Of a stretch of 64,000 nucleotides of DNA, positions 21,822 through 32,982 are shown in pieces. Each line of letters begins with the position of its first letter. Position 1 is the stretch's first letter. Origin of the DNA: Lentibacillus cibarius (GTDB lineage: Bacteria; Bacillota; Bacilli; Bacillales; Amphibacillaceae); NCBI RefSeq assembly GCF_005887555.1, contig NZ_VCIA01000001.1, positions 744,001 through 808,000 of the forward strand, in the 5' to 3' direction. The notes beneath the pieces are model-generated. The model saw only the letters and a program-made list of their open reading frames with translations. It did no database searches and had not been told where the DNA came from. Both the position numbers and the translations under genes were made by a program.

Positions 21822-22850
21822 CTATTCCGTCACTTCGATTTTACCCAGTGCCCCTTTTGTTACATGGTCAAAGGCGTGTGTCACAAATGAATAGATGCCG
21901 GGTTTCTCCACTGTAAATTCAGCTACAATAGACCCGGATACAGGGACCATAGACGTTTGCAGGCCTTCTACAACATTTCTTGGATCACCATCAACATACA
22001 CTGTTTCAAGTTGCGTACCGATAACATGGAAGCTCGATACTTCATTTGGGCCGGCATCAACAAAATTAATCCGAATTTTATCTCCAACTTTCGCCTGAAT
22101 CATTTCGTCCTTAACCGCTTGTGTGCTTCCATTAAACACGACATATTCAGGTTCACCATTCACCATTTCCTCCATTTTGCCATCTTTATAAAATTCACTT
22201 TGAACGACGGTAATTTCTTTGTCAATTTCATTGTCGGTTGGGTAGCCATCCGCCGGTTCAACTATCATCGTTCCATACATGCCATTTGCAATGTGCTGTA
22301 ACACCGGTTCCGTAGCACAGTGATACATATAAACACCAGGTGATCCAACCTCATAAGAGAACGTTCCGCTTTCATTTGGCTTCACGTCAGCAAAGTCTTT
22401 ATTCGGAGAAGCGTAAACAGAATGAAAGTCTACGGAATGATTTATTTTAGGGTCCATATTTTTAAGATTGAAATTTAGTTTGTCTCCTTCTTTCACACGG
22501 ATGACAGGTCCTGGGACGGTTCCATTAAAAGTCCAAGCCTTATACGTTTCACCTTTATCAAGTTCAATATTCGTAATTTGTGATGTCATATCAATATCTA
22601 CTTCATGTTCACCTATACGCTCTACTTTAATCGGTACTGGTTCCTGATCAATTCCTTTATGGGGGCCAATGTTTTCGATTTTTGGTGTATCTGCTACTAC
22701 ATCTTCAGTCTTGACATTCACTTCATTTGCAGGTTTATCCGTATTCGCACCATCTACTTTGTCATCTATCGAGCCGCCTCCACAAGCTGATAAGAACAAA
22801 CCCATCGCACTAAGACCAACTACTAATCGATACCCATTTTTCGTCAACAT
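21822..22850 (-). CDS. nirK: Copper-containing nitrite reductase, lipoprotein
   Basis: A 342-residue enzyme that reduces nitrite to nitric oxide at the outer face of the membrane. A signal peptide ends in the lipobox LSAC with Cys23. Two cupredoxin domains follow. All metal ligands are in place: type 1 copper His138, Cys178, His186, Met191; type 2 copper His143, His177, His325; catalytic Asp141 and His275. The ATG at 22850 has GAGGTGAATA upstream; an earlier codon would spoil the signal peptide. It has its own FNR-like promoter and stands beside the haem-copper operon. Confidence 0.94.
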   Translation of the reverse strand: MLTKNGYRLVVGLSAMGLFLSACGGGSIDDKVDGANTDKPANEVNVKTEDVVADTPKIENIGPHKGIDQEPVPIKVERIGEHEVDIDMTSQITNIELDKGETYKAWTFNGTVPGPVIRVKEGDKLNFNLKNMDPKINHSVDFHSVYASPNKDFADVKPNESGTFSYEVGSPGVYMYHCATEPVLQHIANGMYGTMIVEPADGYPTDNEIDKEITVVQSEFYKDGKMEEMVNGEPEYVVFNGSTQAVKDEMIQAKVGDKIRINFVDAGPNEVSSFHVIGTQLETVYVDGDPRNVVEGLQTSMVPVSGSIVAEFTVEKPGIYSFVTHAFDHVTKGALGKIEVTE

Positions 22851-22958
22851 ATTATTCACCTCATACCTTTTTGTAGTAGAGAAGCCTTCAAACCAATCAA
22901 TCAACATACCTTCGTCTATTAACTGCCTGACTGAATGATTCAGCTTATCTTTAACTAA

Positions 22959-23214: not shown

Positions 23215-23775
23215 CTATGGCGTTGTATCGGAATGATCAGTGAACACATACTGGAGCATATATAGAATACAGCTAGCAGTTATTACTAAAAATCCCCAGC
23301 CAAGTACTTTTTGTTCAACTTCCAGGTAGTTATTGCACACTCGGACAGGCGCGTCGATGTACAACCATGCCATCAAGCCGAACATAGGTATGAAATTAAA
23401 TATAATAAAACTTTTAACTAACGATCCGATTTTACCCCAGCTGTCCCGGAGTGGGATTCCGACAAGAAACGGTAGACTGATAAACTTAAACAATTCAATC
23501 AGCCAGCTCTCGAGTGATGCATCAAGTGTCCGTGGTATAAGCCAATAGGTTATAACAAATACGACAAGCAACATACCGGGAATGCCATTACCATTCCATG
23601 TTTCCAAAAAATTTTTGAACCAATCGTGTGCATAACCCGCTAATAGCCAACCAGCAACTATAAGCAGTGGAATCTGTATAAGCATATGAACAATCATAAT
23701 AGATTCCATTAAGTTTCTAATTGGAGGAACGACTAATATTACAAATAGGATGAGACCATACGTATTTTTTCGCAT
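23215..23775 (-). CDS. Five-helix membrane protein of the NO-reductase operon, function unknown
   Basis: A 186-residue hydrophobic protein with about five membrane helices (roughly residues 7-22, 28-46, 68-85, 118-138, 155-175). It has an IVHMLIQIP segment near residue 28 and NNYLEVEQKVLGW near 148, which faintly recall CtaG-like or DUF1404-like copper-insertion proteins. I do not recognise the family with certainty. It follows the catalytic subunit by 33 bases with an AAGGTGG site and ends at the operon terminator. A role in assembly or electron transfer of that enzyme is an inference from position. Confidence 0.75.
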   Translation of the reverse strand: MRKNTYGLILFVILVVPPIRNLMESIMIVHMLIQIPLLIVAGWLLAGYAHDWFKNFLETWNGNGIPGMLLVVFVITYWLIPRTLDASLESWLIELFKFISLPFLVGIPLRDSWGKIGSLVKSFIIFNFIPMFGLMAWLYIDAPVRVCNNYLEVEQKVLGWGFLVITASCILYMLQYVFTDHSDTTP

Positions 23776-23808: not shown

Positions 23809-25272
23809 TTATGCGAGCTTTTCATCATTCCGGTCACCAGAAACTTTTTCTTTGCGTCTGAAGATATAACGGATAAAATGAATAACAAATACAGTTACCG
23901 CCAACGCTGCAAATACACCGGCAAATGCCCCAAAAACAGCCGGACCCATCCATTCCGGTATGTGGGAAGCCCAGCGTCTCGGTGTACTTAGTGCTCCGGA
24001 AACGAGAAACGACCCACTCAGCGAAACGATTGCCAGTGCAAAAGCTACAAAGGATAAGCGATCCAGTATATTTTGTTTGATATCACTGTCCTGTTTTGCC
24101 AAATAATACATAAATCCAAAAAACATCGTGCAAGCTCCAAGTGCCATATACATATGGAAGTGACCCGGAACCCATTTCGTATTATGCATGACATGGTTTA
24201 CAACAATCGTCGCATCGACAATTGCCGGCACAACGCCTACTACCCAGCCAAACATAGACAGATACAATAACCCGGAGGCGACATCCCATTTAATACCGGA
24301 TTTATAAACAATCATTAACGCTCCATACGCCGTTACAACGAGAACCGGCAACCCATTTGCATAGGAGAGTGCTTGTGCCATTATGAGTGTCCATGTCGGC
24401 ATAACTGAATCCATTAATAGATGGTGTGTGTAAATGAGTAATGTAAAAACAGTCGACATCGTCCAGGCAATCAGGAATACCCTATTTGCCTTCCAGGGAC
24501 GATTCGCATAACGTGGCAATATTTCATAAACCGCAATCACTGCCATATAAATAATCGAGTTGGCAAAAATGTGTCCAAACGCATATGTCAGGTTTTTAGC
24601 CAGCAATGGATCAACTGTAAATGCCGGATTAATCACATTAATGACATTCATAATCAATACCGCGGAACCAGCTGTCAACGCCGTTACATTAACTATCGTA
24701 ACCATCGTACTTGCAATAACCGCTTTAGGCGGAGCGTTGTCCTCAGACTTTTTTCCGGCAATGACATCCCAGCCAAGCCCTTTTGCCAAACTTCCATATT
24801 TCTTCATGATCGCCCGACCGGAATCAAGGTAAAATAATAAGAAACCAACACCTAAAATAAGCATTCCAAACAGGTACAACAATGCACCAACTGTTCCCCA
24901 CGCCGATGCTGACAATTTCGGCAGCGGATAAAGGAATGTCCAGGAACCCGCATATTTAAATGAAAATACACCAACGATCACCATGACAACGCCAATCAGA
25001 AATAAAGCCAGATTGGCCGTCATAATCTTTTTCGATAACTGAACATATTGACTTAGAAAATACCCCATCACTCCAGCCGCAGCCAATGCTGCAGCACCAA
25101 CCATCCCAGTTCCATGTATGGTTAGGAACTGATAGAATGCAGCCGGGGATAAATCTAACATACCGCCCTGCGTCAAAAGCATCAAAATTCCGAACACCAT
25201 CATCGCAACAATAATAATGCCACCAAGTGTTAAGTAGGATACAACCAGATTATTGCGTGACTTCGCTTCCAT
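23809..25272 (-). CDS. Haem-copper enzyme catalytic subunit, probably CuA-type nitric oxide reductase
   Basis: A 487-residue membrane protein aligned throughout with the B-family (ba3) oxidase subunit I. Metal ligands are present: His53 for the low-spin haem, CuB ligands His234, His283 and His284, and His371/His373 in WVPGHFHMYM. But the residue four after His234, a cross-linked tyrosine in oxidases (GHPIVY), is Asn238 here (GHIFAN). Loss of that tyrosine marks NO reductases derived from oxidases, such as the CuA-NOR/CbaA of Bacillus azotoformans. With nirK alongside, NO reduction to N2O is the best reading; ba3 oxidase is the alternative. The start has TGGAGGTG upstream. Confidence 0.85.
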   Translation of the reverse strand: MEAKSRNNLVVSYLTLGGIIIVAMMVFGILMLLTQGGMLDLSPAAFYQFLTIHGTGMVGAAALAAAGVMGYFLSQYVQLSKKIMTANLALFLIGVVMVIVGVFSFKYAGSWTFLYPLPKLSASAWGTVGALLYLFGMLILGVGFLLFYLDSGRAIMKKYGSLAKGLGWDVIAGKKSEDNAPPKAVIASTMVTIVNVTALTAGSAVLIMNVINVINPAFTVDPLLAKNLTYAFGHIFANSIIYMAVIAVYEILPRYANRPWKANRVFLIAWTMSTVFTLLIYTHHLLMDSVMPTWTLIMAQALSYANGLPVLVVTAYGALMIVYKSGIKWDVASGLLYLSMFGWVVGVVPAIVDATIVVNHVMHNTKWVPGHFHMYMALGACTMFFGFMYYLAKQDSDIKQNILDRLSFVAFALAIVSLSGSFLVSGALSTPRRWASHIPEWMGPAVFGAFAGVFAALAVTVFVIHFIRYIFRRKEKVSGDRNDEKLA

Positions 25273-25292: not shown

Positions 25293-25817
25293 TTATTCCG
25301 TTACTGTTATTTCCGCTGTCATTAAATCGTGAGCAAGTCCACAATACTCTAGACAAAGAATTTCATATGTTCCAGGTTCATCAAACGTCATGTAAACTTT
25401 ATTTGTATAGTCAGGCATTGCCTGTGTTTGTGCAAGCATGTTCATCTCTTCATCGTAAATTCCAAAGCCGTGATTCACATCCTTACTGGTAACATGAAAT
25501 TCAACAGGCTCACCTACTTTAAATTCGGTTTGACTCATTTCCCAGCCAAACTGCATGCCTTCCACATCTACCACCACTGGTTCCTGATCGGCACCATAAA
25601 CCGGCTGGCTATATGGTAGTTCCCGAAGTGTATAAATTGTTATGCTCGTCATCAATACAATCAACACCGACGCATAAAACGTACGTGCCTTATACCATTT
25701 TTTCTTTATCGGTGCATATTCCTTCCGCTCTGTAGACTTCCATGCAACAACTGCAAATACGACAAGTACAAGAAACATAAAAAACAAACTCGTGACCCAT
25801 GCAACTGTCTGTACCAA
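25293..25817 (-). CDS. CuA subunit II of the haem-copper NO reductase/oxidase
   Basis: A 174-residue membrane-anchored cupredoxin. Two hydrophobic helices (about residues 6-26 and 45-62) precede the outer domain. The CuA centre is intact: His116, Cys155, Glu157, Cys159, His163 and Met166 in CLEYCGLAHDLM. Electrons from a c-type cytochrome or quinol would enter here and pass to subunit I. It is the first gene of the operon, 20 bases before subunit I, and is preceded by an FNR-like promoter. Confidence 0.92.
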   Translation of the reverse strand: MVQTVAWVTSLFFMFLVLVVFAVVAWKSTERKEYAPIKKKWYKARTFYASVLIVLMTSITIYTLRELPYSQPVYGADQEPVVVDVEGMQFGWEMSQTEFKVGEPVEFHVTSKDVNHGFGIYDEEMNMLAQTQAMPDYTNKVYMTFDEPGTYEILCLEYCGLAHDLMTAEITVTE

Positions 25818-25863
25818 TACGATAACCCCCTTAGAAATGGCAGAAAGCTTTATGTTCTGCTAT

Positions 25864-25906
25864 AGCATATAAAAAATTCGTCAAAAAGCTAGTGATTCAC
25901 ATCACT
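25864..25906 (-). promoter_or_regulatory. FNR-type activator site and promoter of the NO-reductase operon
   Basis: AGTGATTCACATCACT (25891-25906) is a near-perfect palindrome of the FNR/CRP class (AGTGA-N6-TCACT). The -10 box TATGCT lies at 25864-25869 on the minus strand. The spacing to the palindrome is the same as at nirK, base for base, placing it at -41.5. Confidence 0.72.
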
Positions 25907-26028
25907 ATTTTCATGTTGTTTTTTGAAAAAACAGTTTTATTAGTTTTTATGGTTGTAACTATACGAATAGTGTTTACCACCTTAGTTTTGGTGAACTAAG
26001 TGCCTGCGGGCAGAGAATGCGACACAAA

Positions 26029-26066
26029 AAAAGCAGCAGACACATCTTCTGTGTCTAGCTGCTTTC
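26029..26066 (-). terminator. Strong terminator after minJ
   Basis: AAAGCAGC with inner AGACACA pairs with TGTGTCT and GCTGCTTT, a stem of about 15 pairs with a bulge. Seven Ts follow on the minus strand. Confidence 0.9.
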
Positions 26067-26079
26067 CCGGTTTTATTTA

Positions 26080-32577: not shown

Positions 32578-32937
32578 TTACTTTTTCTCTGCCAACCAAG
32601 ATGCAAGTGCCTGTGCATCTTCATCAGATACATCCTGAGGAGGCATACCATCTTTACCATTTTGAATGATATCAACAATTTCATCCGACGAATAATCCGA
32701 ACCAACTTCTCTTAAATCAGGGCCAGCTCCACCGGAAAGATCTCCACCGTGGCACGAAGCACAGTTGTTTTGGAAAATTTCTTCCGCAGCAGCGGTGGAT
32801 TCACCATTTTCTCCTGCAGGTTCTTCCGTACCGGTGTCACCGTTATCACCATTATCGGTTCCACCGTCATCTCCTCCGCCACAAGCGCCGAGCACAAGCG
32901 CCGTGCCGAACAATATTGATAATAAACCTTTTTTCAT
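32578..32937 (-). CDS. cccB: Cytochrome c551, membrane-anchored lipoprotein
   Basis: A 119-residue lipoprotein with one haem. The lipobox LGAC is near residue 18, followed by an acidic Gly/Asp-rich linker, then haem attachment CASCH and the axial Met in GMPPQD. Small c-type cytochromes of this kind carry electrons to terminal oxidases in Bacillus. In B. azotoformans a cytochrome c551 can feed the CuA NO reductase, so it is a candidate donor for the enzyme at 23.8-25.8 kb. The ATG at 32937 has GGGGG eight bases upstream; a TTG two codons earlier lies between them. Confidence 0.92.
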
Positions 32938-32982
32938 ATTCAAATCCCCCTAACATAATTTAGTGAAAAGGCTATCAAGGTT

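Follow-up and report, generated by a model that had tools for sequence, protein, structure and literature searches.

Gene cluster and catalytic subunit

The window, a 64-kb stretch of the Lentibacillus cibarius genome, carries on its minus strand a gene cluster that encodes a CuA-bearing subunit II, a B-family haem-copper catalytic subunit, a 186-residue membrane protein, and a copper nitrite reductase. The features discussed below are as follows.

25891..25906, minus strand: Crp/Fnr-type palindrome AGTGATGTGAATCACT, 74–89 bp 5' of the subunit II gene and conserved at relatives
25293..25817, minus strand: sNOR subunit II (NorS-like, 174 aa, TTG start), bearing the full CuA motif and, at its N terminus, two hydrophobic segments
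23809..25272, minus strand: sNOR subunit I (NorY-like, 487 aa), the B-family haem-copper catalytic subunit
24559..24561, minus strand: codon of Asn238, opposite Tyr237 of Thermus thermophilus ba3 in the alignment; Asn in 240/240 listed family sequences
24547..24549, minus strand: codon of Tyr242, four residues past Asn238; Tyr in 240/240 listed sNOR sequences
24430..24432, minus strand: codon of Tyr281, two residues before the CuB His283–His284 pair; Tyr in 239/240 listed sNOR sequences, Phe in one
23215..23775, minus strand: orf1 homologue, a membrane protein with 36% identity over 161 aa to Ruegeria pomeroyi P0125
22986..23001, minus strand: Crp/Fnr-type palindrome AGTGACTCGTATCACA, 5' of nirK
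21822..22907, minus strand: nirK, copper nitrite reductase and NO producer by sequence matches, with a lipobox-like LSAC near the N terminus
32578..32943, minus strand: cytochrome c551 (cccB-like; NF045774 above cut-off), a plausible electron donor encoded outside the cluster

The subunit I reading frame (25272 to 23809) opens with an ATG and contains no internal stops. The protein aligns directly with T. thermophilus ba3 in a phmmer search (E about 2e-11). The earlier note has it follow ba3 along its length; the identity is low, at 22% to the ba3 of the host itself over 503 columns. In the alignment, His53, His234, His283, His284, His371, and His373 correspond to the ba3 ligands His72, His233, His282, His283, His384, and His386. 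Asn238 lies in the context YAFGHIFAN, four residues past the first CuB ligand, His234, and faces ba3 Tyr237, which we take to be the cross-linked Tyr of that oxidase. The description of this Tyr in PMC3475470, given there in another numbering, is in agreement. Asn occupies the position in all 120 of the best 120 of 2175 matches to the window subunit I (P0001) and in all 120 of the best 120 of 1909 matches to its R. pomeroyi counterpart, the query itself being counted in each list; because Asn is found in 240/240 of these sequences, it is neither a chance substitution nor a sequencing slip. The six metal-binding histidines are likewise kept in every listed family sequence with letters at those positions. 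The replacement of Tyr by Asn and the retention of the six histidines, both read from the DNA beforehand, are thus borne out. Named sources among the best 120 of 2175 matches carry oxidase labels throughout, and the KEGG label for bNOR and sNOR is given as coxA in PMC11388526, which justifies the earlier caution that a cytochrome oxidase label would mislead. Loss of the cross-linking Tyr as a mark of NO reductases also has a published counterpart, since Table A4 of PMC8756737 uses it as a mark of proposed NORs and enters N for sNOR and CuANor.

Subunit I has matches in 2 of 398 genomes of a phylum-wide sample (E 1e-40) and in 11 of 60 relatives (E 1e-60), the host genome being counted in both and one of the 11 having internal stops. 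Lentibacillus persicus (L011/L056, G399) has a broken sNOR subunit I gene, which falls into two overlapping pieces and shows two TAA codons in the match.

The CuA motif of subunit II, CLEYCGLAHDLM, can be aligned, ligands included, with the CuA domain of T. thermophilus. The orf1 product has no Pfam or NCBIfam match; its R. pomeroyi homologue, P0125, is encoded past SCO in the cluster of that organism, and a third subunit or an assembly factor is possible. We assign nirK because its best PDB match, with an E value of 5.5e-112 and aligned copper-ligand motifs, is the nitrite reductase 3x1e; the match to TIGR02376 (E 6.5e-62) falls under the curated cut-off. The gap between norY and orf1 is 33 bp and that between orf1 and nirK is 307 bp, so that nirK, described previously as adjoining subunit I, does belong to the same cluster but is separated from it by orf1 and the latter gap.

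Placement in the sNOR family

We placed subunit I in a 51-row tree (IQ-TREE, LG+C20+F+G4, Tyr/Asn column excluded) composed without nitrosomonad sNOR, gNOR, nNOR, and Bacillus azotoformans sequences. Twenty-four rows, among them the window protein and the R. pomeroyi protein, form an sNOR clade on one side of a branch (100/100). Eight bNOR rows cluster with two Bacillus-type ba3 oxidases (100/99), and three Gln (eNOR-type) rows form a clade of their own; the window protein harbors Asn at this position, not Gln. The earlier note had proposed a tree with ba3 and bNOR-like references and had likened the protein to NO reductases derived from oxidases. The window protein indeed stands apart from the oxidases, but it does not group with bNOR, and it is bNOR that nests with Bacillus ba3, so a recent derivation from ba3 is not upheld.

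A constraint that unites sNOR with bNOR lowers the log-likelihood by 43.8 units (AU test, p-AU 0.0014), and the Asn at the Tyr position therefore most likely arose separately in the two families, as judged from these alignments; a single common origin was considered and rejected at this p value, on a tree to which a long-branch warning applies. Since the Tyr-to-Asn change would be independent in each, the residue alone does not identify the family. The warnings issued by the tree program concern Thermomicrobium roseum with G369, the three Gln rows with a 30-row set that includes sNOR, and Halocatena with Halorubrum; these rows were kept in, and as a result the deeper branching order is less certain than the clades. 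The T. roseum protein (L022:4965-6449) has GHTLVN as in bNOR, yet lies in the sNOR clade.

By sequence, the window protein is a new member of the known sNOR family. It shares 45% identity over 461 columns with R. pomeroyi DSS-3 WP_011241963, and the R. pomeroyi system (NorSY) also has the Asn, Tyr242, Tyr281, a CuA subunit II, and the orf1 homologue. Silicibacter is, we presume, the former name of R. pomeroyi. Table A4 of PMC8756737 enters Silicibacter as sNOR-bearing. The qCuANOR type II of B. azotoformans (BAZO_04695-04710), compared here by its description in PMC3475470, likewise has Asn and CuA, and the sizes given there (1482 bp for subunit I, 519 bp for subunit II with its two TMHs, and 582 bp for the third protein) fit those in the window. 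The two differ in that B. azotoformans has senC in the type II cluster and nirK alone elsewhere in the genome, the opposite of the window on both counts. We infer that qCuANOR type II is the present-day sNOR; the name sNOR is given to type I in PMC3475470, and bNOR and sNOR are separate in PMC11388526.

Gene order, control sites, and other host enzymes

To describe the gene neighborhood, we used 21 distinct sNOR loci (the window, L001–L013, L048–L052, L055, and L057), dropping L053, L054, and L056 as duplicates of the genomes behind L013, L012, and L011. All are from Bacillota, bar the L006 record titled Arthrobacter beigongshangensis, whose sNOR cluster is nested among Bacillota sequences and which is possibly a mislabelled or mixed assembly. 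The order norS–norY–orf1, with subunit II just upstream of norY, is found at 21/21 loci, and nirK lies directly downstream of the cluster at 12. At the 11 nirK-linked loci other than the window, ctpB and PDZ genes lie upstream in 10 and uvrB downstream in at least 8, a count limited to the stretch covered at each locus; the window is arranged alike. In Ornithinibacillus halophilus (L012), the sNOR cluster is followed downstream by two nirK homologues, some 4 kb from each other.

The sNOR cluster layout is given as norSY-senC-orf1 in PMC4940428. The clusters of R. pomeroyi, compared directly, and of nitrosomonads, compared by literature description for Nitrosomonas, have senC/SCO inside, whereas the window lacks it and has nirK joined instead: no PF02630 match was obtained across the 64-kb window. 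We treat senC as a variable companion gene that does not define sNOR; because it is missing from 14/21 distinct loci, its absence is compatible with sNOR membership. An SCO gene is present in the cluster at 0/12 nirK-linked loci versus 7/9 of the others; the longer gaps at L001 and L052 hold no ORF of more than 77 aa and no recognisable SCO. A causal tie between senC loss and nirK gain was entertained and is unsupported, as the tree yields only one to two independent contrasts.

The palindromes were searched for with the pattern WGTGA-N6-TCACW in 32 regions of ≤500 bp at gene starts (20 of subunit II, 12 of nirK), with L010 excluded as its locus is cut off. The pattern is present in 27/32 regions (16/20 subunit II, 11/12 nirK), compared with 0.085 expected per set from first-order random sequences, a count that includes the near-identical L048 and L049 and in which related regions are non-independent; with the outer letters free, it is present in 30/32. 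A scan of the whole window with one mismatch allowed gave one match versus 2.6 expected, which is no excess, and the case for these sites therefore rests on their position and conservation. Genome-wide, 22 sites are found versus 12 for a reversed control pattern, and single sites among the 22 precede nirK, sNOR, bNOR, qNOR, and one nar gene group. At nar, the palindrome is flanked by a divergent gene on one side and the genes preceding narG on the other, either of which may be its target. The pattern is absent from the examined stretches of the ba3, A-family oxidase, nosZ, and second narG genes, and its absence at nosZ and the second nar counts against the NO reductase reading. The arrangement suggests a Crp/Fnr-type regulator, which would turn on sNOR, nirK, and the other NORs together; Fnr-type control also suits high-affinity oxidases. 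The qNOR palindrome (L017, G000:C1:2180291-2180306) ends 14 bp before the first Met, which is odd for an activator site.

PF00115 gives six matches in the host genome (G000; 3.66 Mb, 99% complete), which by sequence are an A-family oxidase, a B-family oxidase with Tyr (GHPLVY), P0122, qNOR, the window gene, and a 155-aa ORF. The weak match of this last (L019, G000:C1:1099074-1099250) covers just the end of COX1 (27 bits), and the ORF encodes a small membrane protein. P0122 (G000:C1:2847875-2849233) is a bNOR-like B-family protein with Asn (GHTLVN). It is 52% identical to the host ba3, and Asn is found at the Tyr position in 121/121 of P0122 and its 120 listed relatives. Set beside B. azotoformans by the description in PMC3475470, its locus fits bNOR (the qCuANOR type I of that work) in having a 58-aa ORF directly 5' of the subunit II gene and an SCO gene downstream. 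According to profile and sequence searches, the host encodes two NarG, NirK, qNOR, bNOR, sNOR, and a Sec-dependent NosZ, and its genotype is that of a complete denitrifier, of which PMC11388526 gives examples among the Bacillota.

Substrate and active-site tyrosines

The window protein quite probably reduces NO as its main substrate, a reading judged most likely because of the nirK neighborhood and the shared control sites; in this respect the earlier proposal of an NO reductase stands, with the family changed from bNOR to sNOR. NirK of the same cluster would make NO from nitrite, and electrons would pass from a c-type cytochrome, with c551 as a candidate, to CuA in subunit II, then to the low-spin haem and on to the high-spin haem/CuB site, which without a redox Tyr would turn 2 NO into N2O. 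The c551 is put forward as donor on the strength of B. azotoformans work cited in PMC3475470. In PMC11388526, cNOR, qNOR, bNOR, and eNOR are biochemically characterized and sNOR is proposed. Counting against an NO reductase are the kept CuB-type ligands, together with two family-specific Tyr residues that flank the active-site residues in the sequence, the lack of senC, and the two further NORs of the host, bNOR and qNOR, with which it need not depend on sNOR.

These residues, Tyr242 and Tyr281, are absent from the 8 bNOR, 10 Tyr-type B-family, 3 Gln-type, and 6 A-family rows compared; position 281 is Gly in the ba3/bNOR rows and Trp in the A-family rows. T. roseum retains both, and the outlying G369 retains Tyr242 with Trp at 281. 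The window protein shares with the ba3/bo3 B-family oxidases the fold, the six histidines, CuA, and two Tyr/Thr residues of the K-path region (Tyr249 and Thr314, aligned with ba3 Tyr248 and Thr312), whereas it lacks their Tyr at the 238 position as well as Tyr244 and Ser309, which we take to be the K-path residues of ba3 and which are replaced by Val245 and Val310 in the alignment. Proton uptake might proceed via a modified K-path comprising Tyr242, Tyr249, and Thr314. Table A4 of PMC8756737 enters the conserved proton channel of sNOR as 0. Tyr242 and Tyr281 may carry protons to the active site or replace the redox Tyr, and if they do so, O2 reduction by sNOR is possible.

The strongest alternative has sNOR acting chiefly as a high-affinity O2 reductase, or on both gases, the radical or proton-donor role of the Tyr having moved to Tyr242, on the same helix one turn on, or to Tyr281, on the helix with the CuB His pair. 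C-family cbb3 oxidases have such a moved Tyr, six residues before the His pair. We regard this alternative as unlikely, in either of its forms, although it draws on the near-invariance of the two residues in sNOR and their absence from the other families compared, and on the transcription of the Nitrosomonas europaea sNOR genes, which are up 2.7- to 10.8-fold under O2 limitation and for which PMC6967387 argues a high-affinity oxidase role. Against it, position 281 differs from the cbb3 Tyr position, the outlying G369 row has Trp there, a bond from either Tyr to a CuB histidine is hypothetical, and the gene context is nirK and not O2 respiration. For Nitrococcus mobilis, PMC6967387 also mentions indirect evidence that NO is reduced. 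NO versus O2 as the sNOR substrate is thus disputed in print, between that work and the NOR proposals, and the answer affects the prediction of N2O from genomes; had the Tyr role moved, the rule that lack of Tyr at the usual place denotes a NOR would be unsafe. Tyr242 and Tyr281 can serve as an easy sequence signature of sNOR and as a target for mutagenesis. The open-licence titles and abstracts surveyed contained nothing on sNOR tyrosines or on nirK–norSY linkage; Murali et al. 2024 (PNAS), outside that scope, may describe the residues.

The predicted structure of subunit I (mean pLDDT 79.3, pTM 0.83) supports the haem-copper fold over residues 5 to 478, with low confidence at 358 to 365, near the HxH ligands. 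Structure modeling, suggested earlier as a check, goes no further than this, as the fold matches of the model span oxidases of the A, B, and C families and leave NOR and oxidase functions undistinguished.

That the protein is an oxidase that has decayed or been repurposed and plays no catalytic part is highly improbable: the Tyr is lost and the L. persicus copy is interrupted, but the window frame is intact, the six histidines persist throughout the listed family, and the partner genes and promoter sites are conserved across several genera. Least probable of all is membership in bNOR (CuA-NOR, qCuANOR type I), as the earlier note had it, since the shared Asn is also common to sNOR and so is not decisive alongside the CuA subunit II and the Bacillaceae-type host, whereas bNOR forms a separate clade, P0122, encoded at a separate locus of the host genome, is only 22% identical over 234 aa, is longer by 72 residues, and comes with a 58-aa ORF ahead of its subunit II gene of a kind that the window lacks (no coding-strand ORF of more than 32 aa in 25818-26079), and forcing the window protein with bNOR costs 493.2 log-likelihood units (p-AU 0.0001). 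The cluster offers a tractable Gram-positive case in which sNOR and nirK are neighbors with matching control sites, and qNOR, bNOR, and nosZ are present in the genome as well.

A further B-family protein, encoded on T. thermophilus plasmid pTthSNM6-6b (L066:3821-5506), has Gln at the Tyr position and is followed by an Rrf2 gene and a DUF542 gene; because HFK replaces its HxH haem motif, the low-spin haem ligand may be Lys.
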